From NCBI GenBank assembly GCA_020091685.1, contig CM034609.1, forward strand, positions 18,830,204 to 18,894,203: 64,000 nt of DNA, read 5' to 3'. Shown here in pieces: positions 1,712-64,000 of the stretch. The stretch's first letter is position 1. Each line of letters opens with the position of its first letter. The notes under the pieces were generated by a model that worked only from the letters and a program-made list of their open reading frames with translations, was not told where the DNA came from and did no database searches. Source of the DNA: Lutjanus erythropterus. Taxonomy: Eukaryota; Chordata; Actinopteri; Lutjaniformes; Lutjanidae. A program made the translations under genes and the position numbers.

Positions 1712-1889
1712 TCTCCACGTGTCGCTCAGTGCTCAGGGTCAGACCATGGTGTCGGCGCTGGTCTTCAGCACTCTGCTTTGGCTCTCCCTCATCCTCGCGC
1801 TCAGATTCTGTCTCAAACTGCTGCTCTCCTACCACCGATGGATGTTTGAGCAGCACGGCCGAGTTTCCAACGTCACCAAAGTCTGGGTG
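1712..1889 (+). CDS. cpt1: cpt1 exon: second transmembrane helix
   Basis: The acceptor ends in CCAG and the donor is GTAAGC. The exon enters in phase 2 (its first base completes a codon) and encodes 59 residues. A hydrophobic run ([18 protein letters not shown]) is followed by [13 protein letters not shown], matching the second outer-membrane helix and the start of the cytosolic domain of CPT1. An in-frame ATG sits inside the exon, but CPT1 homology continues upstream of it, so it is not the start. Confidence 0.92.
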
Positions 1890-28800: not shown

Positions 28801-31800
28801 GACGCATTCATACAGATCAGCTTACAGCTGGCATACTACAGGGTAACACTTTGACAGGCACGCACACAAAATACACACATTGTATTTGGAGAGATGGAGG
28901 TGGTATATGGCAGAAATGTACATTTAATGTGCAGCATTGCAATCAATCAGATGCCCAGTTAGTCGTGAAACACCAGTCACAGTGAAAATTAAACGACTTG
29001 GTTCTTGTTCTGCACCAGACAACAGTTTGGTCAATTTCATTCATTTGTATTTAACTATAATGTGTGTTGGGCATTTGTATTTATATAAAAGTAAATATAC
29101 ACTCATTCTGATTTTGATGCCTCCAACATGTTCCAAAAAAGTTAGAACCTGAAATTATTTGGAATTAGTGCATCATTCTTAGATGACAGTTACAGTTGCA
29201 TCATGTCAGCTGGACATGGACATTCAGATATGTCCTGAGTCTCTTTTTGACAGATGCTTCTTCAGTCTGCGCAGAACAGTTCGAGCAGGCAGGAAGACAC
29301 AAACAGAAAAAGCAGAGAGAATCCGGTCAGTTTTTAAAATTGACCATGAATACAGACAGAAAAGAAAGTATTCACCTATGAAGCCTACATATCCCTGGTA
29401 GAAGCACGAAAAGCAAGTAGCAGTCAGTCGGACATTTGTGTCCTCTGCATTGTTCTTTCTTTCTATCTGCATTGGTTTTAGAAGCTCATGGTCATACGCT
29501 AACTTGTGTCCACAAGCTGGAGAAATATTTTTATATTTGTGTGCACTACCAGCCCGATTTGACCTTTAACTTGACATTAAACAAGCCAAGCAAACGCAGA
29601 CATGACACTGATAGTTTTAGCATCCTCTTAACAATGATGAATGAATGCATTCAACCTTCTTTCTCTCTTTAAAAGGATGACTCATTAATGTTACCATTAT
29701 AACAACAACTTTGATTTGAAGCTTCGGTAGCAGAATTGAAAATGTTCTTATGACTAGACATCCTTATTTATCATTTTGTGGATTTGATGCAGTCATACCC
29801 ATCTTATGTATGTCGGTGCAAGAGAATGCCTCATCGTGCGTGTGTATTCACTTACTGCAGCAGTAAATTTCTACTCTCCAAATACAGCTCGATGATACAA
29901 CCAAAGATATGTATTTTTTTAAATGTTTGTCTTGGTTATTAAAACCATACCAAGCAGCTGCAACCATGACTCAGTGTCCAAGTTCTTCTGTTGGCTGCTC
30001 AGAGAGCTCGGACTGTGTTAAGGTCAACTGAAAAATCTCTCGCCAGGAAATAGATGTTTTTGCACAAGATGCTGTGTCTAAATTGTTTATTTTAGATATT
30101 TTTAGTAATAAAGAAGGATACTGGGCCACTGTACTGACTATTTTGATGTCAGACTGTGTTGTCAGGACAAATGAATGCTAACTACAGTAGAGTAGTAGAA
30201 AGTTAGATATTTTTTTAAGATGCACAAAAGTAAATTTTAGTCATAATCACCCCCTGGCTCCATGATTCTGCATTATTTTTAGTTGGTTAGATTATATGCC
30301 TGGAAGTATGTATTTAAACCTCCTATCTGTGTTGTTCTTGCCTTTCCTGTTTATTTTATTCTTCATATCAGTCAGCTTTGTATTCCCTTCCTATGGGATC
30401 CCCCCCCCCCTCTCTCTTATCTCTTTTTCTGTTGCCTGAGTTTGTTGGCCCTCACTGCAGCATACCATTATGTGGGACTAAGTGGCTAATGTTTTGGTTT
30501 TATTATTTATTTGGAGTACCATTAGCTAATTAGCTTCCATAACATTCCTACTGCCAAATACAGTATATTTATTTTTGTTGACGTTAGTGCTAATCTGAAC
30601 ATTTTCACCCAATTAATAATGGTTTGTAACTCTAATTGTAGATTCTCTCCCAACTCCAGTAAGTAAATATCAGAATTTCTAATAGCATATAGCAAATAAT
30701 TTTTGTTGTCAGGAAAACTGCCATTGAAAAACACTTGCTGTGTTCTACCAGAGGTAACTTTTCATCTACGGTTCTAGCATTGTTTCTATTACTTTTGTGT
30801 GTGTATTTCACAATGACCGCATGTTTGCACCACTTTCATTTTCCCCTGTCTTCCTCTCAAACCTCTTCCTCCTTCTTTTCTTCCTCCAGGATCGTGGTGG
30901 TTTCTGCCTGACTTACGAGGCATCGATGACCCGTCTGTTCAGGGAGGGCCGGACAGAGACCGTGCGATCCTGCTCCAACGAGAGCTCTGCATTCGTCAAA
31001 GCTCTAGAGAACGGAGAGGTACTGATACACGCCTTGATTAAGCTGTCTTTTAAGAATTTATTGCAAAAACTGACATGAATTTTTAAAATCCTGCTGATCC
31101 CACTGTCCATCAAGTCTAAAATCACCATATTGTCACAGTAAAATGGCTGTTTTGTGCTGTATTTCCCATGAATTTGAAGGTTATACATGTTTTATAGGTG
31201 TTTTTAAAAAAAAATAGATGCCAGTGTAAGTGTGATTTGGTTTGACAGGCAGAGGAGCAATGCAGGCGCCTCTTCCGACTGGCTTCAGAGAGGCACCAGA
31301 ACCTTTATCGGATGGCTATGACTGGCGCTGGAATTGACAGACACCTCTTTTGCCTTTATGTGGTCTCCAAATACCTGGGGGTGGAGTCACCTTTCCTCAA
31401 AGAGGTAAACTTTTAGTTTGTTTCAATGTTACTTTGCTGTTTTAGTCTTTTCTCAGTAATATACACAGAATATGAAAAGTGATAACGGTTTCAAAGCAAC
31501 ACTTAAATATTGACTTAAATTATTCAGATATATGTGTGTGTGTTTACTTTTGTCTTCCCTGTTGTCTGTCCTTTGTTGCTGAGATTCAGTTTCTCCCCTG
31601 GGGGACTGATAAAGTATCTTGTATTGTATCGTACACCATTAAAAATGCCCAAAGTCACAGCACGGATTCCACTCAAAGGAGGTGAATGCCCCACAGCACT
31701 TCAAAATAAAGCACAGCAAACATCTGTCTTGTATTTTTACTGCCACTCTGCATCGAAATTTAGAGAATTATAACTTCGAAAGTAACAGTGGCAGTAAAAC

Positions 31801-34800
31801 TGGTGGTGCTATATGAATGTCCCCAAAATCATTTTGATTCGTTCTCTTGGCCACCATGAATGCATCGAATTTGATGGCAATCCATCCAGTAATTGTTGAT
31901 ATATTTCTGCAACTGACCAATGTTGCCTTAGGAACAGAAGAGCCTCACTTACTTGTTGGCAGTTGTAGTATTTATGTTTCCATTTCTGTAAAGCACCTTG
32001 TAAACTTGTGAAGAGAAGTGCTATATATTTGAAGTTCGTCATTACTACTTTGTACTTTGTCCTTGTTTCTGGCAAAACCAGGAAATCCAGTCATCAGTCA
32101 GCACGGGAGTCACAAAACAAAAGGACGGTGATATAATCAGTCCTTGAGTGAACTGTAATTGAGTGCAAATGCAGTTGTAACCTGAACACCAAATAGATAG
32201 TGACAGCATGTTGATTTAGTCTAATCTAGGGATTCATGTTTCTCCCGAACATAAGGCATTTTCTATCCAGGGAACAGAAGCACATTATCCCAAGAATCCT
32301 AGGAAATGCTCTTGTTTTTCAAGGTATAATTTCAGCTAATGCCAAAATATATGGGTCACATTCCAGGCAATGTTGTATGTAACAAGGAGAAATGTGAGCA
32401 CTTCAGTCTATTATCTGATGGTGTCTATAATTATTGGGGCAGAAGAACGGCTTTTCAACACTCATCATCATAATTAACATAATATAAACTGTGTAACAGT
32501 AGCCTCAGTTGTTCACAGAGTGCAGCACTTTGCATCTTCATCGTTTAATCTTTTGAAGTAGTTCTGCTGGCAGAAATTGTGTTGTGTTAAGCTGATTTAG
32601 ATGCTAGAGCCACAAATCACTGTACTAACTGAAGGTAAAGTCAGAAGGATTTGTCTGAGCTGTTCATACATGCACCAGATAGATAACTGATTGTTGAGTG
32701 TCATTCCCCACACATCAAATACTGATGTTTTTAGGTTGGTAAAGAGTCCTGAGCACAGAAAAATAATGAGAAAATGAGGAGAAACAGGCAAGGATCTGAT
32801 CTGATGCAAGACAGGATCTCAGACACAACCACACACTTCTATTTCCTGGGAAATGGAAAATAGTTTGGATAAGCATTCCTATGAGTCCTGTCTCCTGGGA
32901 GTAATACACTGTCTGGTCTTTCCAAAAACATATCAGCTGCAAACTGTTTTACACGTACGCCTCAGAGAGCCTCTGTTGTAAATCCATCATCAGTAAAGAT
33001 GAAAAAACAAAATCCACAAGCACACTGTTTGTGATTTATTATTTGCTTTCATCGTAATTTCTACCTGCAGGGCAGATGCTTCACCACCCTTCCTTTCTTC
33101 CCACTCACACTCCAGGTTTTGTCAGAGCCATGGCGTCTCTCCACCAGTCAGACCCCAGTGCAGCAGATGGAGCTGTTTGACCTGAAGAACCACCCCGACT
33201 TCATATCGCTGGGCGGAGGGTTCGGACCTGTGAGTGACCCACACTTTCCTCTTGTTTTTATTTGCAAATATGGATGACGAGGACATACCAGGTGCATGTT
33301 TTTGTAGTCAGAAGCTGGTGTATGGATGCAAACGTGCACAGGTATACTTGTGCAATGGATGGTCTGTGAGGTATTAACTCTGTGCTCGTGTCAGGTTGCT
33401 GACGATGGATACGGGGTTTCATACATCATCGTGGGTGAGGATATGATCAACTTCCACGTGTCGTCCAAACACTCCTGCAGTGAGACAGTAAGTGAAGCCT
33501 TTGCCACTTTCATCAGTGTTCATGTTGCGCTGATGTTTAAAAGTTTGAATTACAGAGAATGTTTGAAGGTTTTTGTGTCAAACTGCGATGAAAAAGAGTT
33601 AATATTTTGCACAAAATTTATTGGCATTTTGTACAATATCAGTATCAAACAGGAAAGAAACCTTTGCAGAAAAAGCAGAGGGATCATATTCTGTGTATTT
33701 AAGTTTAGCGGTACATTTGTGCATGATGCATCATCCTGCTTATAGGGACATGCAGGCCAATTGTGACAGTAGAGAAACCAATCATTAAAAATGAAATTAC
33801 TGTTTATGCATTTAGGAATATAAAATATATCATTTTAATTGTTGGGGACAAACTGTACGCCGGAATGCAGGAATGCTCATTTACTACGTTTTATGGAGAA
33901 TGAAAAAAAATAAAAAATACACTTCAATGTGGGACAGTGGTTGTTAAGACCGGGACAGTTCAAAGTAAGATTTGGGACAGTTGCAGAACAATGAGGGGAG
34001 AAAAAATTTACTTGGAGCCCTGCCAATGCATTCGGCTGAATAATTATTCATGCAGACATCTCAATGAATAATTATTCAGTAACAGTTCTGATGCTGCAAT
34101 CAACTTCCTGCAAACTGGTTAATCACAAGGCCGTTAAAGACTGATTCATGGCTTTCCCCGCCGAAGGCTGGGTTGCATCATCATCAGGCCGGGTTGCATC
34201 ATCATCAGGCCATTCTTAGAACAAAGCACATGACAGGACTGACAAACTGTTGATTGCTTCACTGGCCATTTTCAGTTCCCTTTTCACAATGTCACTTTTA
34301 CATAGAATCTTGTGTTCATGAATTGACATGAATAGAACCAGACCCATAAAATAGTGAGGTTGATATAACTGCTTGCATATATAGCTGTCTTAGTGTAGAT
34401 GCCAGCTGATAAGTAACAAAAAAAAAATAAAATTAAAATTAAAATAGTTATGCACTATAAAACCAAATGTTCAGATGAATGAATTATACTAGCAGTGAGA
34501 ACTTTAAATTTCTTCAGAGGTTCTACAAACTTAAAAATGTTGAGTGTCAGTAGATTTTTTTTCTTTTGTGTTTCTTTACAAATCCTTCTACTAATCCTGA
34601 GATGTATTTATTGAAAATAGTTATATTTAATTAACTGTAATCAAAGAGTACATGTAACACAATCTCCAAATAATAGAGTTCAATAACCCCCCCCAAAAAA
34701 TTGTGGGAACTGAATTGCCTCAATTTTTTGACTACTGCTAACTTGTTTGGGTTTATAGTGTGAGCAGATTTATTTCTACACAGTAAAAACTAAAAAGTGG

Positions 34801-48473: not shown

Positions 48474-48512
48474 ATGATGTCATGGAATCATGCGATCCTC
48501 TTGTTTCTCATC
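48474..48512 (+). CDS. Gene 2 exon: start and signal peptide, part 1
   Basis: The exon starts at 48450 after CCATAG and carries two adjacent ATGs (48474 and 48477). Thirteen codons (MMSWNHAILLFLI) start a hydrophobic signal sequence and end in phase 0 at GTAAGT. The first ATG is chosen; either would work. Confidence 0.7.
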
Positions 48513-51500
48513 GTAAGTGTCACTCGTGCAGCATTCACCACATAATGGCACAGCGGCCATTTTCCTCTGATGGTCCATTCTCCTTCCAGGTTTTCGCTAT
48601 CCGTTGTCTTTTCAGTTGCTGGTCAATTAGGAGGTGGCGAAACAATAACAACTTGTCAGATTCTCTCTGTTTATACAACTTGCAACCTGGAACTCAGCAG
48701 TACAACACTGAGTGTGACGTCAGAGGAAAATGGCAGCTGTGTAAATATTATGAATTCCTAGTAAACAGAGTGTTGTATCGCAGCCGATAGTAAGAAAATA
48801 TGTCTCTGGTGAAAAATGACAGAGGATGACTTGCCACAACAATACGCCTTCTTTATTCGGAGCAGGTAAAATAGCATCTGCTCTTGAGCAGCTCATGGTG
48901 TACAGCACTGAAAAAGCCCTCTAGTGCCTCCTATTGGCAGCAACAAATAACAACCCTAGCGCCCCAACTCAGTACAAGCTTTTTATCTTAAGCATTTTTA
49001 CACATTTTTATTTCAGTCTCTGCACACAGCATCTAGTAACGCTGACATGGTAGCTCGGAGTTATGAGTTCTAACTTAAAATGATAAGATCCGGAGGACAG
49101 AGGACATGTATAATGTACAATTTAATACAAACAAGAGTTAGGAAATACTGTGCATTCAATTCATTCGACCAGGGTTAAGGAAGTATGAGCTGACTGCACA
49201 GCTTGGTTATATGTGTTTGCACTATTTGATACTTTATGATATAAGATTTTATAGCATTCTATCTCCCAAACTATTGAAAAGCAGACCTTTAATGCTGCTG
49301 TTTTTTTTTTTTGTCTGCAAGGTGTTCCTGAGCATGATCAACATGTCAAAAGGAAACTGTATCGACTATTTCACCATGGACGAATTGGTAAGTTCATCAT
49401 TTTTAGGTGTGACCAGCATAGCAGTGGAGTGGCCTGTAAGAAAAAGGTGCATAGCTTTATAATGGATTGATGTAACATGACCAAACTAATGAACCATTTG
49501 TCAGACTCATCATTGCGCTCAGCAGATTTCCTTTTTTCATTAGTGACTTATGACCCGCCCCCTACGTTTAGCCACACCGCCACCATTTGACTCTTCTGTG
49601 AGTGTGAGTTAGAGTTCTGCTTTATATATATCTGAATAACTTTTATCTGCTGTGTGCCATTGAGGGTGCCAAAGCAAAAACCTGTCCAATTCTGTACATA
49701 CTGGCTTTTAAAAAAATGGACAAAGTGCTATATTATCAAAATTTGTGACAGTTAAAAGTAGCTCACATTCTGTATCTATACTGTATCTTCAAAGTGGACA
49801 AAGACCTGTGGCAAACAACATATATTATATAGTCAACCTGGACCAGGTTGACTATTTGTCACTGGATAAGTGGTTGAACAGGATTTCAAATCTGCTCCCA
49901 CAGACACAGAGTCCATGTGCCACACTCCTAACACTATGTCAGAAACAGAAGAGTCTCTTCAAGTTACAAAGATAAAGGTTTAAAAATTACAAGTACAAAG
50001 TACAAACATCTGCCAAGTGTGACAAATTAGAGGAAACACCGTCCCAGAAAAAAACAACAGAACACAGATGGCTCTTCAGGTTACAGTGGTAAACACACAA
50101 AAAGTGCAAGTACAAACAGCTATCGAGTGTAGCAAATAAGAGGAAACATTAACAGTTTGTTTATACCAAAGGGCAAACGCCATGTCAGAAACAAAAAAAC
50201 TTAAAGAACACAGACGTCGCTTCAAGTTACAAAGATAAAAGTACAAAAAGTCAAGTTTGACAAATTAGAGGACACATGAAAAATTCAATTCTTTATTTAG
50301 GCTGGACATTTCAGCATAAAGACAACACGTGTGCTGCTGCTCTATAAAGGATTTAATGTAGTATTTTTTTTTGTTTACCAGTATGTGGATGTGTGACGTG
50401 TCTGACAGTGACTACAGCAGAAAAATCCTGTAGGTTGTCTGGCTAGAGAGAGATTTATGTTCATTAAGTGTTGAGAACCACTGGATTAGACAGCCAGGGA
50501 ACAGCGTTAGGTGGTTTTCTACATCTGGTACCCACAAAATGCATTGTTAACTGTTAATAAGTGCATAATAAAGGATTTAATAAGCCTTCTTCACACTTTA
50601 TATTCAGTACTCCCAAAAAGTCTAGTTAAATGTTAATAAACCCATAGTTAACTACAAATACATTCATTATAAAATATGTAGAAATCTTAATAAAGCATTA
50701 ACAAAAGCTGAGTAAAAGTTTACCAATGACATAATATGTAAGTCAGTTAAACTCAAAAAATGTATTTGTAATGCAATTATTAATAACTATAAGAAACTCA
50801 AGGCTTGTGTTACATTCTTCATCAGTCTACACACTGTTCAAAAGTCTCTTCAATGCTTATAAATGTCTTTTAATCTTCCAATAAACATATTTGGTATGCT
50901 ATTATTAGCACTTATATCTTCTTATTAGTAACACATATTAACAAGCACGTTAATATAAAGTGTAAGAAAGAACTATTCATTGCACAGTTAACAACCCTCT
51001 GCGGACCTCTGGCAAACTATATCAGGAACACAAGAATGAAAGCAGTGATAATCATGAAGTGATAATTAATAGTTGAAATCTTCTCTCTGCTTCTCTGTTC
51101 CACTTTCTAGAAAAAAAATCTCACAGACACCATCTCCATTGTGAAAACAAACGATCTCAAGGTAATTTACTGAGATTCCATGTGAATGCATTTTGTTCAA
51201 AAGGGACTGTGCTCAGCTGTATCTGACTCAGTGTGCTCTCCCAATGCAGGACGCTATAGAGTGTACTCTAGAGAGGGAGATCTTGCATAATCAAGAAGAA
51301 AGAAAACACCTTTTGATGTGCTTTCTGGGTCCAGTGAGTGAACAATACAGACTTTTTAACTGTCCTTCTCTTCAACTTGGTGGCATGTTTGTTTGTTTGT
51401 TTGTTTTTTGTTAAACTTAAGTTAATGAATCTTTGTGTCTGATTTTTTTTCCATCATAGGGACAAAACAAGCCAAACAACATCAGTGTCAAGTGTAATGG

Positions 51501-53800
51501 AGAGCCTACTCTGAAAGTTACGTTATACCACTTCAAGTGTTTGATGGCCAAAGCTTTACAGTTGAATTCTGAAGCCATCGGTCATACAGGTACTACAGAT
51601 ACTCATGTAAAGCAATCAGCTACAACAGTCTGTCTATAAATTCTGACTGTAATTGTCCACAACTGCGGTAAAATCATCACCAAATATGAATATTAACGTG
51701 TTAAAGTTGCAAAATTCCTAATTTGCTTTTCTCTCTTTCTTGCATCACAGGCTGTGAATACGGTGAGTATACATGCTGCATTGTGAATGTGGTTTGTGGT
51801 ACTGTATGTGATGCACATGGAGAAAAGTGTCTGCATGTGTGTGTGTGTGCGTGCGTGTGTTTGTGTGTATTGTATCTACCCATGCAAGTGTTGGCACCAA
51901 AAACACACAGTCAGTGTTATCAGCTGTATCAACTGTTCACTCTTATTGAATCATGTGTCCATATACATTTGCGTTAATTTACAATATATCTTTTTTTTCC
52001 TTTTCAGACACTGTATTAAAGATCTATTCTAGCATATATAAAGGTAAGTCACGTCATGTATTTAGTGCATGTTAATGCTGTGCTCTTGAATTCCCAGGAA
52101 TCATGCTTGCTGCTGCTTAAACTTGCAGTTCTCCATCTCAATTCTCCACATCATTTACAAATTGCACATGTACAGAGATGTAGTCTTATCACTCAGGGAA
52201 CCATGGATACATATGTAACCTTAATTATTACCTTAATTCAATCTGCATATCTATTTATGTGCAAACCATAGGAAGTTACAGTGAATATAAAATACTAAAA
52301 GTCTACAGCCATGCTAGTGGCTCTGCTAATATGCTCACAATAATAATTATAACATGCTGACTTTGAACATGTACAGTTATATACAGTTATATTTCTCTGG
52401 CAATCCATCTAACAGTTGTTTCACTGAAAACTACAAATATCAACCCTATGTCAACACTAGAGGAAAAATCAGAGAATCACCAAAATCACCAAAATCATGA
52501 ATGTCTGTACAACACTTCATGCCACTCCAGCTGTTTTTGAGCTGTTTTAGTCTGGAATGAAGTGGTGGACTGATCATGTGACAGAGATATCTGTAAAGCC
52601 ACCCTGCTAGTATTCCTAAATCAGGATCAAAAATACTTTTATTGATCCCCAGGGAAGGCAAGAAAATATACAACATAGAGAAATTAAGAAAATAGAAAAT
52701 CAGTGTATGAAAAAAATATGTCAATTCTACCACAATATCTAACAAAAACAGCATAACAATAACATAACAGAAACATATACACAAGTATGTAAAAAAGACG
52801 AGTGCCTTGTTTTCTAATCTGTGGCAGCAAATATGTGTGTATATGCATATACAGTAGAATACTACATATCTTGGAAAAATAGAATAAATAGAAAATAATC
52901 AATGTTAAGAATTATGTAAACTAATGTGCATCAGAGTAGAATATACAACAGTCTAAATAAATAATACTCTTCTATGTAGCGGACATTGAATTATTAAATT
53001 ACTGCATAGAATATGACTGTTGAATAATTGCACATTTTTGTCATTTTTGCACATTTTATTGCAGAGTATTGCAATTGTATAGGAACTGTATTGTCAGACA
53101 AAAGTGCACCATTATATTTAAATTGTGAATAAGTTTACTTTGACTTTTTTTCATGGCAGTCCAGATGTCGACATGGCATGGACATTTCAATTACATGCAA
53201 ATATAAATAAATAATAAATAGAAAGATAATCACTCTTCTAGTTTAATGTGTGCTGCTTAGCTTCACAAGATGTCTCCTGCAGCTTACTATATTGTTCTAG
53301 CTAAATTTATTGTTGCAAACACAAATCTGCTCTTTCTTTGTCATTTGGAAGTAGTTCTTTAAATGTTTTAAATATAAAGTTCAGTTAAATGGACATCTTT
53401 ATTAACATAACCGCTGTTGCATTTTTAAACAACAACTCTAACAGAGGTTGACATGTCAGTATTCTCTCAGCACTTTAACGACTGTCAGCCAGATGTCAAA
53501 GGAGCCACCCTGGGGATGAAACACTGCCTAGTTTATTTAAAAAAAAAAAAAAAAGTGTTGAAACCAGGAAAAGAAGATTTTATTTTATTTTAAGTAAAAG
53601 AAATATGAAATTTCCAAGAACTGATGGTTAGAGCACGCATAGTAGCAAATTAAACATTTTTTGATTCCCTAACCTTTAATTTTACCACATCTGCTACTAT
53701 TACTGATTACATTAGTGTTTCTTCTACAGTTCATATGGTAAGATTTTATTACTGACTGCCTGCCTGCAGGTTTTGGTCAGACAACAACATTGTTACCACC

Positions 53801-53843
<43 letters not shown>

Positions 53844-54117
53844 GCACCACCACCACCAACAACAACAACAACAACAACAACAACAGCACCAACAACAACA
53901 ACAACAACAACAACAACACTGCCAGAAAGAACAACAGCAGCAACAACAGCAGCAACAACAACAACAACAGTATTGTCACCAACACCGACAGCAGTTAGTG
54001 GAGTCACTGGTAAGCTATGTAAATGGTACTCTATATGGTCATTGAAAATACTGATTTATACACACACATATATATACACATAAATTTATATGTACATACA
54101 CACACACGTACACTCAC

Positions 54118-54184
<67 letters not shown>

Positions 54185-57100
54185 CATATATATGTGTGTA
54201 TGTGTTTATAATGCTTTAAAATGTTAAATTAGTGCTGAAAGTACATTAAATAGCAGGTGACTATTATCAATAATTTTACCACCATTTTGGCACATTTGGC
54301 TCTTCATATAAATTAGAAGCTTAAGGAAGCAGCTCTTCATTACAAGTGAGAACACTAATCAGACAAGTGGACCAACCTCTAGAAACATACAGTTAGAAAG
54401 CACTTCAGATAAAGTATAAAGCGTATCTTTGTGCCTCTTCCCCAAGTAACCCAGACCATTGTATTGAAGTGATGGTACACTCTGTGGCTTGATTTGAAAG
54501 GAGTTTAAAAAGTTTTTTAAGAAACAGATTTGACCCTGTAAAGTTTCCCTTCTGTTGCCTTGTGGTAACAAACAAAATAAAGACAAAACCATAAACATTA
54601 ATTTACTCACTATTCTATGTGCATGTCCTGCATGTAAAGCTGCAAGTATATATTCATATAAGTGTATATGAATCCATGGCTTTCCAGTGCTCAAAGCAAG
54701 ATTTTTCACCTGCAACTGCATGGGCCCTGCTCTTTTCAGTACCGTGGGTTCTGCATGCAGCAAATGAAATACAACTTTTGGTTAGATTGATCCATGGATG
54801 TACTGAGGAGAACTGGATACAGCATTGCTGCTCAGTCTTGCTTCTACATTTTCCTTGTGGCCACTTGCAAAATTGCACTTGAAAAATTCTTCTGTTGGCT
54901 AAAAACATTTTCTCCATAGACCACCGTTGTGAAAGAGATGTCTGCATAACTGTTGATGGACAATCTCAAAACTGCGATCATTGTCAATCATGACTCTGGT
55001 GTGAGTTTTTTGAACCATGGAGGTTTTATATTTGCAAAAGTTTCCTCTAGCTGAAAAAGTGGGGAAAAAAATCTTTGACATCATCGCAGTGTAAGGTCTA
55101 TGAACTGAGCAGAAACTCGCCGGCGGGACCGCATTCTTTGGCTGGCTGCACCCAGAAGCTACAATCTACTGTGGTCTCACAGAGCCACTTTTCTGCAACT
55201 ATATATGGCACACTCCTCAGATCTTTTCCAGTGGATTTGGTGCCTAACCTAATTGTTTCTAGACGTGTATCATGTAGTAGACCTGTCCTGTAGATACTGT
55301 GAATCCTCACATAGACCAACTAGAATTTTTTGGCATATGTGCCAGTAAGCAATTGTCATTGAACTGAATAGGTGCTATCTTGTTCTTAATACATCCATGG
55401 AATGCCCTAACATTTCACTAAACAAGATTGCTTGCCTCTTGGGATTTTTAAATTCATAATAAGATTTCAAGAGTGAAAAATATTGTTGTCTTGCATCACT
55501 TTTTTTCAAGAGGAACACCCAAGACGTCCCTCACTTTGATCATTTATTTTTAAATAATACCGAGGAGATCTCAGACAGACATCCTTAGGTATAAGTTAGC
55601 ATAAAGTAACATGTTAGCATTGTCTTTATTTTCTGTCGTCACACAGTAGTTTGTTTTACACTGTACATTTACAAATGTAATAATAAGTTGTTTTTGTTTC
55701 ATGATTGCAAAGGTCAGTCTTCACACCTTAAAGGTAAGTTTTTTTTTTCTTATTTGAAATTTGTATTTTTGTCTTTTGTATGACATCTTCAAACTGCATG
55801 TTTTATCTGACCAAAGACCCTCACATTTCAGGTTTGCGGGATTTGGTTTAGAGATTCTTGTTATCACTGTTGGGAATTTTTTTCTGTTGTTGTTCTTTTT
55901 GCGGAATTATTTTGGAGATGATAGAAAGTTAAGACTGTTGTTTTAATTGTTCTCAGTCCACTGCTTTACTAGAACACCCACACTCATATTTAGATAAAAG
56001 TGATTTTTACTGCCTTTCTAAATGTTTATTTGCTGAAATAAATAAATAAATAAAAAAAAGCAGCCATCCCTTGATGGAAATGGTCCATACTGGTTATGAT
56101 GAAAATATTTAACATAACATCTGTCTCTGCTGTGTAAAAACAGGCAGGATGTTGAAAGAAATACACTGTAAGTTTACAATTGTGCTGATATGTTTTTTTT
56201 GTATCTTTCCACAGAGAAACATGAAACCTCCAACACAGGTAAGTTTTTTTCACTTAAATTTTGCACATTTGGGTTGATATGAATATTTCAGAACAGCTCT
56301 GGAAGCAAGTTAATCAGTAATCACAATAACAACAATAAATCCGATTTAGCATGTTCTTTGTACTGCCAAAATATTTATTTGCTCTTTAGTGAATAAAAAT
56401 CCACCAGCATTTGGCATCAATTTGAAATGAATGGAGATTCATATGCACATGCAAGTTACACTTGACCCTCACACTGGCTCATTCAGTTAACAGCCAGTTT
56501 TAACAGTGAGTGTTATTTGCAAAATTCAACTTTTGTTTTGGCCTGTGGCAGAGTTTTGTTAGCTTCGCAATGTAAAAACAGTGATCAGGGAGAGGAAGTT
56601 GCGTTATTGCTGGACTCAGAGGGAGGCTGGGTGTGCAGAAAGTAGTGTTTACTGCAGCACTGTACAAGAGCCAGATGTGGAAAGCACAGAACAAAGATAA
56701 ATTTTTGACATTGGATCACATTACAGTTCCTCCCATTCTAGCATAGTTTTATATATAAGCATAGAGAAAGTAAAAGAAAATTAAACTATAACAAAAAAAT
56801 AACAATAATAATATAATTATACTACAATATATAACACAAACATGTGTGTGAATCATAGCACAATGTTAAACAACAATGTAAATAATAATTATGAGGGAGT
56901 GGATCTATAAATGTGTTAAGATACAAGAATAGTATAGATAAGAATATAAACTGAAATGTATGAATACCAGAGAATACCAGAGTATACTGCACAGCTGAAT
57001 TATTGCACAAGCATATTGTAATGTTAAGTCAGTAGTGCTCAATTGAAAATATAAATAATAAATAGATTATGGACTATAACAGCTGACAGGGATTAAATAA

Positions 57101-60100
57101 GTCTGGAAAGATTGATGACCACCAACAGGAAAAGCCTCGTGTGGTGCTTTGTGGTGCATCTCAGTGGAAAGAGTCTTTGACTCCTGTGCTGTATTATTTC
57201 TTAACTCACTCAAGCACAGTGGCTCAAAAGTGTTAGAAATTACAATCACAATAATGACCTGCTCACTGTACACTATCCCGCTTATTCCAGAGTCTGTGAT
57301 CAGAACTGCACGCATAGCAATGGTCTGTTCTTCATAGCAGAGGTCTGCTACACAGATGGTGTGTTCAAATGGGGTCGTGTTTACTGTGTTTATGACATTG
57401 TGAACTGAAAGTTTTCTGATAGCTCTGTGCTCACAACATGACTTCTGCATCGTAATGAGGAGTTCATGAGTTCCATTTGCCTTAGAATGCTGAAACTGAC
57501 CAATCAGAATCGAGTATTTAACAAAGCTGTGTACTAAATCCTGATTGATGCCTGTCCTGTAATTTTGTTGTCACATTAACGGAAGCCATCTCTGATCTTT
57601 CCTCAACCAGACATATCAAAGGTATTAATAGTATCAATGATCCTCAATGTGCTTCTGCCGCTGGGTGTTTACCTGTACATGCGCAGCAAGAGGAGTCAAG
57701 ACTACAGACCGCCGGTGAGTGTGAGCAAAATCCTGTTTGTCGTTTGATTGTAAAGCTCCATTTAGGCAACCAACCAGTTTAACAGTCTTGCTTAAGGAGT
57801 GGAGGCCCAAGAATATGTAGACAGATATACAGTGAGTATATCAGGAGCAATATAACAGTAACATTCATTGTGGTTTGTTTGAGGGATCATAGTGTGCATT
57901 TGTCACATTTTCCCACTGGAAATCTGACCTGAAAGTCTTATCTTTGCTTACCTCCAGTGGTTTAACTTCTCACGTTGATGCATTGAGGGACATGCAGTGT
58001 TGGGGAGTAGAGACGTACATGTAATTAAACTGGCAGTATAACTACATTTTTGCATTAGCTTGCTGGTAGTTCATATTTGCATACTGATTTTCAGTAGTGA
58101 AATACTTTTTGTCATTTTTTATGTAGTTAGCCACTGAAACTACAAACAATTTCGGAACAGAAAAGCAAAAGAATGATTTTAAATTTACAATTTTTTCTCT
58201 ACTGTAAAAGAACTAGCTTTGAGCTTCCTGACCCCCCGCTTCCTTTTTCATCGTGACTGTGTGAAAGCAGCATGTCCAGGCAGCCACTACCTCTGCCAAA
58301 AATGCAAAGAGTCAAAAGTTCAACACTGGTGTCCCAGCCATGCTGCATGTGACCATTGTGTTTCAGTGCTCAGTGGAACTGCCAGTTGGATAAGAGCTGC
58401 AAGACTGCCAACAAAAGATCATTAGCAGATCGTCCCGCAGTTTAGACCAGAGTTCAAGCTGTTTATTCTGTCTTAAAAGATAAGCAATGCCAAACAGTTT
58501 AAGAACAATATTTCTCACCTCAAAACTGCAAAGAATTCATTGATTTCACCATCTACAGTGTATAATATTATTAGAAGATTCAACAAAAGTGTGCTGGGGA
58601 TTTGATGAATCCACATTTCAAATAAGTTTTGGAAATCATGGGTGTCATGACCTTCATGCTGAAAGGTACATACAAGTTTTGGAGCAACATATGCTAGCAT
58701 CCAGATGACATCTTTTTCATAGATGCCCCTGCTAATTTCAGCAAAACAATGCCAAGACACATTCGACATGTTTTTCAGCCGTGCGGCTTCACAGTAAGAG
58801 AGTTCAGCTACTGGACTGCCTTGTCTGCAGACAAGGATCTGAGCATCTGAAGCCAGACAAGAGTGAGAGATAATTTCACTTTCAAAACTTGAAAAGGAAG
58901 GAAAAGGTGACATGTCACAGGAGTAAGCACGCCCGTCGCAACTTTTTTGAAACGTGTTGCAGGCATCAGATTGAGAATGAGTGTATCTTTACAAAAAACA
59001 ATAACGTTCGAACCATTTTGAAAATAAAATATTTTTTTTCTTTTGACTATATTCAGTTGAATATAGTTAGAATTTTGTTTTGTTTTTATTTATGTTTTAC
59101 ACAGCATCCCACCTGTTTGGAATTGGGGTTGTCTGTAGCTTTAGTGTGAAGTAATTAGGATACGATACAATGCAACTTTATTGTCAGTATAAACTGAAAT
59201 TCATTTAACATTAGATCAAACATATTTACACAGTAGTACAGGTTGGTAGTTTGCAAAACTAAGCTTTCAAAGTAGTTTCCCCAACACTGTTTACAAATAT
59301 ACTCCATGACCCAGTGACATCACTGCTCTTCAGGAATGATTTTTTAAAACTCATCAGTACCAAAACCCTCAAATGATTATGAATAAATGAACAGTTGTCA
59401 TTTCTTTTTCAGACTGAGCTGAATGGAGCCTCACCAGATGATCTGCCAGCAGCAGAGATGGAGGTACTTTTGTAGATATTTTTCAGTTGTGGCAGAAATA
59501 ACTGCATAGGTGCTTTTTCAGCTTGACTCACAATCTGCTCACCTCCTATTAGGAGTCCAAGACTGCCTCCAGTGTTGATTTTAGAATCACTTTAGCTCAG
59601 TCATCATGCTGTTTCAAGTGATTAATCTAAATGCAGAGGGTAAAGCTGAAACTAACTCGAGGTAATGTTTAACTACCTCTCCGCCAGCTCAAAAACATGA
59701 TAACAGACAAGTGAAACTCGCATTAACTGCAATGAATTATTAACAGGCAGGAAGATAGGAGGCGTAGAAACCGGTCTTTCCCATGATCACAGAATATACA
59801 GCTCCACGTGTCAGGAAAATCAGAGGACTTCATTATTTTAGTTTATACAACACTGATTTTGTTTGCACTCAGTGGCTACATATCCCATGAATATTATATC
59901 CCATTTAAAAACACTGTCAGTTACAAATCTCTGTAATGAATCAAGTGAATTTCAAGTTTCTGCAAGCTAATTTTCACCATGTAATGAAATAATTAATGGT
60001 AAAACAATGGCTGTCTTGAAGGTAGTGTATTAAAGCACACATTGTGATATGAAAAATGATCAGCAATGTATACAAACTGCAGAAAATAGGAACTTAAACT

Positions 60101-61512
60101 GGAGTCATAACCATTTGTGAGTAATTCTTAACCACTGCAGGGAATTATCATTGTGTTTGAGGGCTGAAGCAGAAAAGTTAATCTGTCAGCCATTATCAAG
60201 ATGTTAAAGTAACGTGGTGGTCATATTTAAGTGATTAAAATAAATCCAAATCAATTTTTCAACCCACAACCCTTTGATGTGCGTGTTCAATATTTGTCCT
60301 TCTTTAAACTCACAGCTGACACCTGTAAACAGGGACAAAGAAGAGGCCTCACGTTTAATGCAGGTAATTACAATATGAGTGGACAATGTATAAAGTACCC
60401 TGCAAAGACTTTCTAACTCAAAATGTTTTCACACACAGACACGCAATGTTATGACACAGTGCCAAGTCATAATAGAAGTTATCTCAGTGTACTTTTCATA
60501 TAGAACAGGTCTAAACTGTGCTCTTTAAAATATTATTTACAGAGCTCCAACAATCCCCACCATGAGCAAGCACTAGGCAACAGTGGTAAGGAAAAACTCC
60601 CTTTTTAACAGACAGGAACCTCAAGCATAGCCAGACTTTGGGTACTTTGGGCAGCCATCTGCCTCATCCAGTTTATCTCTAGTTTGGTCCAACAATAGCT
60701 GCTGGACTTATCTCTCAGCTGGGTATTTAGCGTACGGTTGTCTTGTCTGAGCTTGTTTGGATGTTATTTTGAGGGGTTGAAGACAGTTTGATTTTGCAGC
60801 ATATTTACGTCTGTAGACTTGGATATTTAATCTCAGTGACTTTGGAACCAAGAGCAACCTTTTCACCTCAATTATCAAATGCTAATAATCTCAAAAATGG
60901 TAATGTTTTATTTAGTCTTTATTGTGCATTTTTATTGAGAGCCATCATTGCAAACTTAAGATTTTAAAGAACAACTAAAAAAAACACAATTATATATAAA
61001 CCAGTTGAGCAGTAACAATTACTCTTGGTAATGATGCATAATTGTATGCATCTGCTGCTCCTCCCAGTCACTGTTGGTATTTTCATCCTCTGGATGAGTT
61101 GGCTCAAGATGTGGTAGAACTTTGTTGTGTGTCCGTGTTGTTGAATGGTGTGCTTGCTAGTTATGCTATGCTTATGATAAGTGGTGACATAATTTGTCCA
61201 AGCTGTTCGTAAATGCACCAGAAAGATAGATGATCTTTAGTCTCATTTCTAGGATGTCAAATACCAACTTTTTGGTTTGGTAAAGTGCCTCAAGCACAGC
61301 AAAATAATAAAAAAAAAATGAGGAAATGCAATCCTTACTTCATATTAGTTTGTTAACATTGACATTGTGAACATGTTAGCATTAAGCTCAAAGCTCTGTT
61401 GTGCCTAAGTACAGCTTCACAGAGCTGCGAGCATGACTGTAGACTCTTGTTAATGGATAAACACTCATCTCTCTCTCTCCCTCTTTGTTATACAGACCTA
61501 TGAGTGTGACTC
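48474..61512 (+). CDS. Type I membrane protein with six-Cys helical domain and poly-Thr stalk; candidate FLT3LG/CSF1/KITLG-like cytokine
   Basis: I assemble 15 coding exons: 48474-48512, 49322-49387, 51111-51161, 51250-51333, 51460-51589, 51751-51762, 52008-52043, 53770-54009, 55713-55733, 56215-56238, 57611-57714, 59413-59463, 60316-60363, 60543-60585, 61496-61503 or beyond. All junction phases agree. The product is about 318 residues: signal peptide (1-24), a domain with Cys 26, 57, 76, 92, 107 and 125 and N-glycosylation sites at Asn38 and Asn87, a Thr stalk (about 143-215), a membrane helix (about 239-258), RSKR stop-transfer and a short tail. Small helical exons in phase 0, a phase-1 switch into a mucin-like stalk, and a membrane anchor recall FLT3LG, CSF1 and KITLG. 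FLT3LG is near CPT1C in mammals. No sequence match strong enough to name it was found. A simple mucin-like receptor is the alternative. Confidence 0.7.
49322..49387 (+). CDS. Gene 2 exon: signal peptide end and mature N-terminus
   Basis: Twenty-two codons continue the hydrophobic core (VFLSMINMSKG) and enter the mature chain NCIDYFTMDEL, with likely cleavage just before NC. A T-rich tract precedes the acceptor. Confidence 0.72.
49829..49855. repeat. 13 bp perfect inverted repeat, 1 nt centre
   Basis: ATAGTCAACCTGG and its exact reverse complement are separated by a single A. Confidence 0.9.
49935..50277. repeat. Three imperfect tandem units of about 110 bp
   Basis: Each unit carries a CAGAAACA/ACAGA stretch, then CTTCAAGTTACAAAGATAAA or a variant, AAGTACAAACA, and CAAATTAGAGGAAACA or a variant. 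Starts are near 49935, 50042 and 50181. Confidence 0.75.
50587..50968. mobile_element. 382 bp MITE with TTCTTCACACTTTATATT ends
   Basis: The left terminus TTCTTCACACTTTATATT and the inverse complement of the right terminus (TTCTTACACTTTATATTA) match almost fully. The interior is AT-rich with repeated TTAATAA and non-coding. Confidence 0.65.
51111..51161 (+). CDS. Gene 2 exon: helix A region
   Basis: Seventeen codons in phase 0-0, KKNLTDTISIVKTNDLK, include an N-glycosylation sequon NLT. Flanked by TTCTAG and GTAATT. Confidence 0.7.
51250..51333 (+). CDS. Gene 2 exon: long amphipathic helix with two Cys
   Basis: Twenty-eight codons, DAIECTLEREILHNQEERKH then LLMCFLGP, form a charged helix-like segment with Cys57 and Cys76. 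The exon begins right at the donor-matched phase 0. Confidence 0.72.
51460..51589 (+). CDS. Gene 2 exon: NNIS sequon, two Cys
   Basis: A 130 nt exon, phase 0 to 1, encodes GQNKPNNISVKCNGEPTLKV and TLYHFKCLMAKALQL. It holds the NIS sequon and Cys92 and Cys107. It switches the reading phase to 1, as at the helical-domain/stalk boundary in membrane cytokines. Confidence 0.75.
51751..51762 (+). CDS. Gene 2 12-nt micro-exon (GCEY)
   Basis: A strong acceptor (CATCACAG) and donor (GTGAGT) bracket only 12 nt. It is in phase 1-1 and supplies the sixth Cys. Frame is kept whether or not it is included. Confidence 0.6.
52008..52043 (+). CDS. Gene 2 36-nt exon (DTVLKIYSSIYK)
   Basis: A phase 1-1 exon between TTTTCAG and GTAAGT encodes a short helix-like segment just before the stalk. 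Confidence 0.65.
52615..53140. repeat. LINE-associated AT-rich repeat
   Basis: ACTTTTATTGATCCCCAGGG near 52635 is a common fish LINE-tail phrase in reverse. It is followed by a long AT-rich stretch with AATAAATAGAAAATAATC and TTGCACATTTT units. A related stretch lies near 56820-57070. Confidence 0.45.
53770..54009 (+). CDS. Gene 2 poly-threonine stalk exon
   Basis: A 240 nt phase 1-1 exon lies between CCTGCAG and GTAAGC. The frame set by the preceding exon reads ACA codons, giving Thr runs of 14, 9 and 9 broken by APPPP, AP and LPER, then TTAATTAATTTTT and SPTPTAVSG. This is a mucin-like O-glycosylation stalk made from a trinucleotide microsatellite. The other frames read poly-Gln or poly-Asn and are not used. 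Confidence 0.78.
54123..54180. repeat. (TG)n microsatellite
   Basis: About 58 bp of pure TG starts 113 bp after the poly-Thr exon donor. CA/TA-rich DNA precedes it. Confidence 0.95.
54183..55712. other. Gene 2 intron
   Basis: No exon or defined element is seen. Sequences near 54700-54870 and 55130-55300 have a repeat-like texture, but I could not classify them. Confidence 0.35.
55713..55733 (+). CDS. Gene 2 21-nt exon (GQSSHLK)
   Basis: Phase 1-1, between TGCAAAG and GTAAGT. It is juxtamembrane, and a likely optional cassette. Confidence 0.55.
56215..56238 (+). CDS. Gene 2 24-nt exon (EKHETSNT)
   Basis: Phase 1-1, between TTCCACAG and GTAAGT. Juxtamembrane, polar. Confidence 0.6.
56820..57480. 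repeat. Repeat-derived DNA, LINE/MITE-like
   Basis: TGAATTATTGCACAAGCATA, ATAAATAATAAATAG and AAGTCTGGAAAGATTGATGA give the texture of the LINE-associated repeat at 52.6-53.1 kb. The class is uncertain. Confidence 0.35.
57611..57714 (+). CDS. Gene 2 transmembrane exon
   Basis: A 104 nt exon, phase 1 to 0, encodes DISK, a 20-residue hydrophobic helix from VLIVSMILNV to GVYLYM, then RSKRSQDYRPP, a basic stop-transfer sequence that predicts a type I orientation. Confidence 0.78.
58200..59140 (+). mobile_element. Decayed Tc1/mariner-type transposon
   Basis: Around 58650-58800 the sequence reads GCTGAAAGGTACATACAAGT, TGGAGCAACATATGCTAGCA and CAGCAAAACAATGCCAAGAC, encoding a frameshifted AERYIQVLEQHM and FQQNNAK, the transposase DDE-domain block where an active copy has FQQDNAKPH. 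The 3' part ends CACCTGTTTGGAATTGGGGT, typical of the inverted terminus of this fish family. Stops and frameshifts show it is dead. Left boundary uncertain. Confidence 0.65.
59413..59463 (+). CDS. Gene 2 cytoplasmic-tail exon 1
   Basis: Seventeen codons, TELNGASPDDLPAAEME, acidic, phase 0-0. Acceptor TTTTTCAG. Confidence 0.65.
59464..60315. other. Gene 2 intron
   Basis: Nothing recognisable beyond AT-rich sequence. Confidence 0.5.
60316..60363 (+). CDS. Gene 2 cytoplasmic-tail exon 2
   Basis: Sixteen codons, LTPVNRDKEEASRLMQ, phase 0-0, flanked by CACAG and GTAATT. Confidence 0.6.
60543..60585 (+). CDS. Gene 2 cytoplasmic-tail exon 3 (optional)
   Basis: A 43 nt exon encodes SSNNPHHEQALGNS and ends in phase 1. 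Its inclusion makes the next exon read D-L-stop, whereas skipping it opens a different 36-residue tail. Confidence 0.5.
60586..61495. other. Gene 2 last intron
   Basis: It holds the repeat copy at 61195-61322 and a CT-rich tract just before the final acceptor. Confidence 0.55.
61195..61322. repeat. Dispersed repeat, copy 2 (pairs with 32.6 kb)
   Basis: TTGTCCAAGCTGTTCGTAAA, GGATGTCAAATACCAAC and GGTTTGGTAAAGTGCCTC have counterparts at 32655-32750 in the same order and strand. Confidence 0.6.
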
Positions 61513-61606
61513 TGTCGTTGCACATTCAGCTCCCCCAAGGAATGACTGTGAAGTTGGAATTGAAATGGCACAAGGATGCTGCTCACATCATTCTATATTC
61601 TTAATG
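61496..61606 (+). CDS. Gene 2 last coding exon, two possible readings
   Basis: After the 43 nt exon, the frame stops almost at once (TGA at 61501-61503). If spliced directly from the exon ending at 60363, the exon reads TYECDSVVAHSAPPRNDCEV to SHHSIFL and stops at 61604-61606. Both readings have valid splice phases. The longer frame may simply be 3'UTR. Confidence 0.5.
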
Positions 61607-64000
61607 CATCACACATAACAAAGCGTCAGGTTGCCAAGAGGGACAGGAGACCTGATTGACTGTGGTTTGCAAATACCACAGTCGGGAAATCTTGAGGTGA
61701 AGATTTGCTTCAGATGTCAAGAGGAGTGAGCGTGAACGAGCTGCAGCTTGCCGGTTCACTCTGCCACACTGAAGTCTCTCATCAAGATTGTTGCGTTGCC
61801 CGGCCCCAGCATTACGTCAAAGGGACATGAAGTGCAACATCATGCCACTGCTTCAAGGACCAACCCATTTGTCTCCCGTGACTAGTTTGTTTCGTTCCTA
61901 CACTGGCCAAGCAAAAATACACCGGGAAAATGTTGGTTGGTGCGTTGGTTTCCAGACTATGAGCCAGGAGTTTGTTTTTCCACAGATTACAGAGAGGGAA
62001 ATAGGGTAAAATACGTGAATGAAATTATTCATCTATCAGGCCCAAATTGCTTTTATAATCACAAGAAAGACACTGGTACAAATCTTATCAGTTTGTCTTT
62101 CTGTTGAGCTTAAGCTTAAAGAGACACTTCACCTGTATTGCTATTTATCTGTCTATATTGTTTTGGTGTGTGTTGTTTTTAAGATATCGTTCGTAGAGAT
62201 GTCTGCCTTGTCTTGTAGTAGAACTACATGGGACTCTTTTTGCTCTTGGAAGATCCAGTGATCACTAAGGGTATTATCCCATTCAGACAGAGTGCAGGTT
62301 TTGCAGTGAGAGGTGCTTTTTCCCAGTTCAGTAGTCCAAATGGATGAAAAAAAAACTGCTTGAAAAAAAAGGAAGAAAATGATGCTTAAGGCATTTTTAG
62401 CTTTATAGATATAGTTTTCATTTTCCCCTCATAAGTTTTCTCAGTGAGGCATTTATGGTGTCTTTTTTTCTCTCTCTCTCTCTTTTTTTTGAAACAACTG
62501 TATGACTCCAGGTTTCTTTCCTGTTGCAGTGCAGCTTTTTTTTCACTGCATGCACTGACGTTGATGAAGATAAAGTTGAAATGCTACACAATTAAGATAC
62601 TACGATTTTTCCGACTTTTTCCTTCCTGACTTTGTTTATCGGCCAATACCAAGGAACAGTGTGATACCAGTTAGTTATGCCAGTATTGTTGGCGCAAAAG
62701 CCCTTCTAGTCATACACCAACAGAACAAAATTTGAAATGCATCTTCAGTTTAGTTGCCCAGAGACATTATATTTAACTGTATTATAGTATGAATATGAGC
62801 CTTTGGGAGTTAGCTATCTTGATATGCTGAGCTATTTCTAGTACTGAACTCATTCTGCAATGTTATAACCAGTTTTTCATAAGCTGTAAAATTTTACTGA
62901 AGTTAATGTGAAAAGGTATGTAAAACTTAGTCTGGTTAGATTCCCCCTCAGAAATGCTTCATAAATATACCGTTCTTTGTGTTTTATATTGTATATACAG
63001 GATCAAATAATATATATGCATTCTTTGAACACAATCTAACACAAACTATATACGTAACTGCATTTTCGTCATCTTATCAGCCTGTTGCCACAAGTTGATA
63101 ATAGCATGTAATCATGAAAAACATTTCATTTTGTGGTACATCTCATCTGCAAAGTCTGACTTTCAGTCCTGTCCTGCTTGTCTTGTGCTCTGTGTGGTGT
63201 TCAGATTCATTCAATTTGTATTATACTGTGCTTTTATATTTTTTATGTTAGTAGGTTTATTTATGGTGTTTTTAACAGAGTAGGATGGTGTGTGTGTGTG
63301 TGTGTGCGTGTGTGTGTGCGTGTGTGTGCGCAGAGGTGTAATGTAATGTACTTGTATATAAATAGACACATGAATGATAACATACAGACTGAAGTATGCG
63401 AAAGCTTCCCTGGTGGCAGCAACAACCTCATTGGCTGAGATGAATCTCAATGGGTGGAGCCTATAGAGAAGTAGTAGTAAGGTCACATACTATTGAAAGA
63501 TTCTCTAAATTACTTAGGCACTTCAATTAAAATTGGCCAGTTAGGTACCTTCCACTCTGAGCCACCGTCCACTGAGGTTTAATTCATCACTCCTTGCGGA
63601 GCCTTCCTAAGTCCCACCCCTTTTGGCACCTTGGCCTCCTTTCCTGCTTCCTGTGCATAGATATGCTGTGTTAGGCTCGTCAATGTTGAAAAGAAAACCC
63701 AAATTTGAAAATTGAGTTGCTGGGAAACGTGTAAAAGTGACATATCACATCTGAAGTTGGCTAATGTTGCAAAACACTAGCTAATTAGCTAGCTGCAGCT
63801 AGCACAGAGCAGAAATGGGTGGGACAAGGGTCAATAGTTCCATGACACCAGTTCTGCATGCCAGGAGAAATTGCACAGACCTGTGAAAGTCCATATGTTT
63901 TTCCTGCTGATAAAAATTGACTTTGGGAAAGAACATTATTCTGTATGCATAATTTTGGCAGCATATTTCAGAGCTAAAATGAATGGTGCGTCATCATGTT
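61607..64000. other. Gene 2 3'UTR and downstream flank
   Basis: The 3'UTR probably begins at 61504 or 61607. A 9 bp stem-loop lies at 61658-61683. TTATC-GGCCAATACC near 62637-62650 looks like a hAT remnant, and a (TG)n microsatellite lies at 63287-63330. I did not find a clear AATAAA. No third gene is seen. Confidence 0.5.
63287..63330. repeat. (TG)n microsatellite with CG interruptions
   Basis: An imperfect TG run of about 44 bp. The antisense frame reads poly-(TH), an artefact. Confidence 0.9.

Follow-up and report, generated by a model that had tools for sequence, protein, structure and literature searches.

Whether teleosts have kept a counterpart of FLT3LG is the question raised by a gene that lies beside a CPT1 gene in Lutjanus erythropterus. 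This gene, hereafter the candidate, is contained in a stretch of 64,000 nucleotides (the window), which corresponds to C19:18830204-18894203 (contig CM034609.1 of assembly GCA_020091685.1) in the 938-Mb genome. The initial annotation of the window had proposed that the gene could be the FLT3LG orthologue or a related cytokine of lost identity. We read the candidate, with moderate confidence, as the counterpart by position of FLT3LG in teleosts, with strong divergence and a helical domain that has become shorter: the place where it lies, its membrane plan and its intron phases all point to FLT3LG, and its sequence neither supports nor excludes this identity.

CSF1, KITLG and FLT3LG are built on a common type I membrane plan, and their exons are joined in phases 0-0-0-0, with a switch to 1 where the helical domain ends. 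In zebrafish, the ligand gene flt3l is termed potentially missing in a review, yet Flt3 is expressed (PMC6306437), and flt3-expressing cells resembling type 1 conventional dendritic cells (cDC1-like) are described (PMC12698085). Among the literature matches listed, none stood out as a report of a teleost FLT3 ligand, and no such ligand is described in passages on FLT3 or its ligand from fish or zebrafish papers.

The window was read directly and the exons were joined, giving a gene of 12-13 exons that extends over 48474-59475 or 48474-61618, depending on its 3' end. From 5' to 3' the exons measure 39, 66, 51, 84, 130, 12, 36, 240, 21, 24, 104 and 51 nt, followed by the last exon, and all the internal exons have AG/GT borders:

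48474..48512, + strand: exon 1, coding part, MMSWNHAILLFLI, start of the signal peptide; donor in the top 3.2%
49322..49387, + strand: exon 2, phase 0-0, remainder of the signal peptide, Cys 1 and start of helix A
51111..51161, + strand: exon 3, phase 0-0, end of helix A / AB loop, sequon NLT
51250..51333, + strand: exon 4, 28 codons, phase 0-0, apparently a single long helix, with Cys 2 and 3
51460..51589, + strand: exon 5, 130 nt, phase 0-1, a helix with sequon NIS and with Cys 4 and 5; acceptor in the top 0.2%, donor weak (top 11%)
51751..51762, + strand: micro-exon 6, 12 nt, phase 1-1, Cys 6
52008..52043, + strand: exon 7, phase 1-1, short amphipathic segment ahead of the stalk
53770..54009, + strand: exon 8, phase 1-1, Thr/Pro stalk from ACA/CAA repeats
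55713..55733, + strand: exon 9, 21 nt, phase 1-1, optional; acceptor weak
56215..56238, + strand: exon 10, 24 nt, phase 1-1
57611..57714, + strand: exon 11, phase 1-0, transmembrane segment followed by a basic stop-transfer
59413..59475, + strand: exon 12, cytoplasmic tail, spliced at 59463, or terminal with stop TAG at 59473-59475
61496..61618, + strand: possible but doubtful exon 13, ending in a stop

Junctions one to four are in phase 0, the 130-nt exon 5 leads from phase 0 to phase 1, and phase 1 is kept up to the transmembrane exon, where the frame returns to phase 0. The exon plan that had been described before, with four phase-0 junctions, then a 130-nt exon leading to phase 1 and a stalk, was seen again on joining the exons, and this order of phases (0,0,0,0 and then 1) is that of FLT3LG. 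The 3' end is uncertain between two alternatives: with exon 12 as the terminal exon, the stop lies at 59473-59475 and the protein ends in ...AEMEVLL, or the gene runs to a stop at 61618 in exon 13, whose codon usage resembles non-coding DNA. The extent of 48474..61606 given by the initial annotation therefore holds for the start and not for the end, since the last exon stops at 61618 and is doubtful.

Is this chain of exons a real gene? In exons 1-5 the codon usage does not look clearly coding (-0.18 bits per codon, with 16% of 280 non-coding open stretches equally high), and, together with the non-coding-like exon 13 and three weak splice sites, it would fit a gene model that is partly wrong or a gene in decay, i.e. 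an FLT3LG that is shortened and dying, or exons chained by chance. This explanation appears very unlikely to us. The joined frame is open, with the six cysteines and the signal and transmembrane segments all in place, and apart from the three weak sites (the exon 5 donor, the exon 9 acceptor and the exon 12 donor) the splice sites are on a par with the best ones at the CPT1 exons in the window. Furthermore, a filter for exons with an acceptor of at least 6 and a donor of at least 5.5, a length of 9-240 nt divisible by 3 and an open frame in phase 0 or 1 found 8 distinct exons in the 9.2 kb of 48513-57720, seven of which are model exons, and no more than 11 in the five control stretches, which together measure 57.0 kb. 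Exons with strong splice sites are far denser at the candidate than in the controls, and more so than by chance. Applied inside all the model introns with 60-base margins, the same filter gave only two overlapping extra exons, and none in the introns of the domain, so the shortness of the domain is no obvious modelling gap.

In the joined product, the signal peptide, domain, stalk and tail were assigned by reading the sequence, and the transmembrane segment by hydropathy. A signal peptide of ~23-24 residues is followed by a helix-rich domain with six cysteines (residues 26, 57, 76, 92, 107 and 125 of the full-length protein) and two sequons (N38-L-T and N87-I-S), by a Thr/Pro stalk, and by the transmembrane segment, where the best 19-residue hydropathy (2.19) falls at 239-257 with RSKR directly after it. 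The sixth cysteine sits past the phase switch, in exon 6. Thus the layout is that of a type I membrane protein with a stalk and a short tail, as judged from sequence and hydropathy only, and each element noted in the initial annotation, down to the two sequons and the Thr stalk, was read again. The ACA/CAA repeat that codes for the Thr stalk occupies 53790-53985, and a long GT repeat follows shortly after, at 54120-54182; the length of the stalk may differ between individuals.

The CPT1 gene that had been placed beside the candidate was located upstream, as follows:

1725..33502, + strand: body exons of a CPT1 gene (Cpt1c/Cpt1a2-like); two 5' exons lie just beyond the window, and the last coding exon was not located

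Over 264 kb of C19, the gene order is DUSP3, prolactin-like, CPT1, candidate, PIH1D1, TNNT1, SYT5-like, ferritin, ALDH16A1 and KAT7. These neighbours were suggested by open frames and then matched to human proteins, so that the probes, picked after reading, provide confirmation and not a blind screen. When 10 neighbour fragments were compared with Pfam, 8 matched the expected family above the cut-off, the prolactin-like one fell below it, and a second ALDH16A1 fragment matched none. The first matched exons of PIH1D1 and ALDH16A1 are located 11.6-13.7 kb and 62.6-64.7 kb downstream of the candidate, respectively, each range being set by the 3' end of the candidate. In human, ALDH16A1 directly adjoins FLT3LG, and FLT3LG lies a few hundred kb from CPT1C (19q13.33); the candidate likewise has ALDH16A1 and PIH1D1 near it, in a probable CPT1C block. 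In addition, a human CpG is annotated jointly to FLT3LG and ALDH16A1 (PMC10163801), FLT3LG, ALDH16A1, PIH1D1, RPL13A and RPS11 share one table of commonly deleted genes (PMC2859053), and a description of the Kiss3 block of coelacanth and Xenopus places PIH1D1 in it together with ALDH16A1 (PMC4015844). Upstream of CPT1, ~67 kb from its first matched exon, lies the prolactin-like exon (Hormone_1, E 0.0006, under the curated cut-off).

The CPT1 gene of the window was compared with the three CPT1 paralogues. Overall identity is highest to CPT1A (431 of 639 sites, vs 401 for CPT1B and 358 for CPT1C), a result explained by the fast evolution of CPT1C in mammals. The sites that match a single paralogue number 46 for A and 31 for each of B and C. 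In the alignment, motifs such as one of 16 letters and TLAT are common to the window gene and human CPT1C and absent from A and B. A quartet with the three human paralogues favoured CPT1C by 3.7 log units, which is not significant. In a tree with the paralogues of the genome itself, the window gene pairs with a copy on C20 (support 100/100), separate from two genes of C12, a CPT1A-like one (82/74) and a third, and human CPT1C is not placed with support; there is a further, distant match (39% identical) on C7. According to Lopes-Marques et al. (PMC4589379), teleost Cpt1a2 is most likely Cpt1c, duplicated in teleosts, and the genes of its locus include Tnnt1 and Dnaaf3; Tnnt1 is present in the block of this fish too. 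From the motifs, the paralogue tree and synteny, the gene is most likely Cpt1c (teleost Cpt1a2), as its earlier label of CPT1C-like had suggested.

Several observations weigh against identity with FLT3LG. First, the conservation of the locus is partial. RPL13A, RPS11, PRMT1, RRAS and part of AP2A1 found no match in the window and 100 kb on each side of it, where only one of six human probes, CPT1C, was matched, and RPL13A, the other neighbour of human FLT3LG, is located on another chromosome (C15, ~15.29-15.30 Mb), so that the RPL13A side was not kept. Neither the candidate nor human FLT3LG found a match in the 5 kb upstream of this RPL13A gene; a coiled-coil exon there was reminiscent of ATP5IF1, which Pfam did not confirm.

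Second, the sequence shows no particular affinity to FLT3LG. No Pfam family, Flt3_lig (PF02947) included, matched the candidate up to E 10 in the profile search that the initial annotation had called for, and phmmer against PDB likewise gave no match up to E 10. When local similarity to a panel of 17 cytokine sequences was scored under six schemes, CSF1, KITLG and FLT3LG were the top three of the 17 under the first (each with p 0.056-0.093), and human FLT3LG, third there (p 0.09), ranked 15th, 16th, 5th, 8th and 2nd under the five others. As the top-three ranking was lost under other matrices, it is not used as proof. An exon-by-exon alignment to seven sequences gave p=0.15 for FLT3LG (0.11 for the mouse sequence), no better than IL4 (0.09) or IL15 (0.11), and single-sequence hhalign assigned no probability above 1% to any of 16 single sequences or to the FLT3LG pair. 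A suggestive point in favour is that, in the first unconstrained alignment, the exon 2/3 border of FLT3LG falls on the same residue as that of the candidate, and the exon 3/4 border is one residue off.

Third, the domain differs in cysteine spacing and in length. The disulfides of human FLT3LG join C4-C85, C44-C127 and C93-C132, and its cysteines are spaced 40/41/8/34/5, vs 31/19/16/15/18 in the candidate. Exon 4 has 28 codons, ~20 fewer than the 48 of the FLT3LG exon for helices B and C, and is therefore hard to reconcile with two helices. The caveat of the initial annotation, that the helical domain is shorter than in FLT3LG and its cysteines are spaced otherwise, was well founded. Since the profile search was negative and the cysteine pattern differs, we do not file the candidate as a proven FLT3LG.

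These results bear on two further explanations. KITLG and CSF1 both outrank FLT3LG in five of the six schemes, and both stay high in four of the five later ones, as would be expected if the candidate were a type I membrane cytokine of the class III receptor-ligand group, i.e. a CSF1- or KITLG-type copy or an unnamed fish cytokine, that landed in the block and is not FLT3LG by descent; the membrane plan and phases of these cytokines are the same. With CSF1 the candidate has in common a stalk, the phase switch closing the helical domain and a weak in-register alignment across the AB loop and helix B; CSF1 differs in its human locus, its longer domain and a score that is not significant. KITLG, another membrane cytokine, has the top panel score in three of the six schemes, but its alignment is out of register and its locus is another one. 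This origin seems to us rather improbable. A slightly better claim, though still an unlikely one, can be made for a mucin-like membrane protein of type I, specific to the lineage and no cytokine at all, whose helical domain is small and rich in Cys: none of the cytokines tried is significantly similar, exon 4 is apparently one helix, and the Thr stalk is long. However, the locus and intron phases fit FLT3LG, and a small helical domain with six cysteines, set on a stalk, corresponds to the plan of a cytokine. The short-chain cytokines of type I receptors, IL2, IL4, IL7, IL15 and TSLP, also have phase 0 introns in the helical domain but are secreted and lack a transmembrane exon, and none of them scored significantly. 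Kisspeptin 3, whose gene belongs to this block in coelacanth, and IL11, a neighbour of SYT5/TNNT1 in human, were considered as identities and rejected, since neither is known as a six-Cys membrane protein.

A diverged FLT3LG remains our preferred reading. Its likeness to the candidate lies in the type I layout, the six cysteines, the intron phases and the locus; the two differ in that FLT3LG shows no significant similarity, has other Cys spacing, a longer exon 4 and RPL13A next to it, and in that the candidate has a long Thr stalk and micro-exons. The proposal first made for the gene, FLT3LG orthologue or related cytokine, is partly supported: the locus, type I plan and phases are in its favour, and the lack of FLT3LG similarity above other cytokines, the Cys spacing and the short exon 4 are not.

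A separate flt3lg elsewhere in the genome, which the initial annotation had named as contrary evidence, was looked for and none was found, although the search was insensitive. The near-full protein matched its own locus in the whole genome and no second copy, and the domain matched its own locus and two weak places (E 0.73 and 3.75), whose translations were judged to be chance. In the same genome, the Flt3_lig profile gave a single match below the cut-off (E 8.7, on C4) and the SCF profile gave none; as teleosts possess kit ligands, according to a review (PMC6306437), these profile negatives carry little weight. Scans of a contig collection with a CPT1 exon and of phage records with the candidate domain gave no match. 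A stretch of the human FLT3 kinase had 72 matches at many kinase loci of the genome, none of them assignable, with the best single-exon identity (82%) on C21. Downstream of the Cpt1c duplicate on C20, no copy of the candidate was present within the 10 kb read (C20:14507501-14517500). This stretch contains two C-type lectin exons (Pfam Lectin_C; positions 55-462 and 2489-2854) on the strand opposite to the Cpt1c copy, with transposase-like frames, recognised by reading, between them.

If the candidate is FLT3LG, its product would be made as a type I membrane protein, and the helical domain could be displayed on a Thr stalk with heavy O-glycosylation, or be shed from it. We infer that the domain, presumably of the ligand fold, would dimerise and activate the Flt3 receptor of the fish on cells of dendritic type and on blood progenitors. 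That teleosts kept FLT3LG at its ancestral place with a smaller helical domain, rearranged disulfides and a long mucin stalk is a proposition we regard as evenly balanced; a ligand so reduced and rearranged would have been missed by sequence searches. The candidate may already be named in public gene catalogues. As the ligand has been called potentially missing while Flt3 is expressed, a locus pinned down between Cpt1c and Pih1d1 allows the matter to be tested directly, whichever teleost is chosen.

Some minor observations were made on the sequences compared. A PDB chain named ribosomal protein L13a (7qwq_O) matches human FLT3LG over 133 residues, possibly through a gene-prediction fusion of the two neighbours. 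Intron 1 of the candidate contains two dispersed repeat families (48570-48759 and 48771-49013), and the 43 genome matches listed for this stretch include 42 further copies with 70-85% identity. Finally, the intron before exon 12 carries, at 58250-58900, open-frame pieces which on reading resemble a decayed DNA-transposon transposase.
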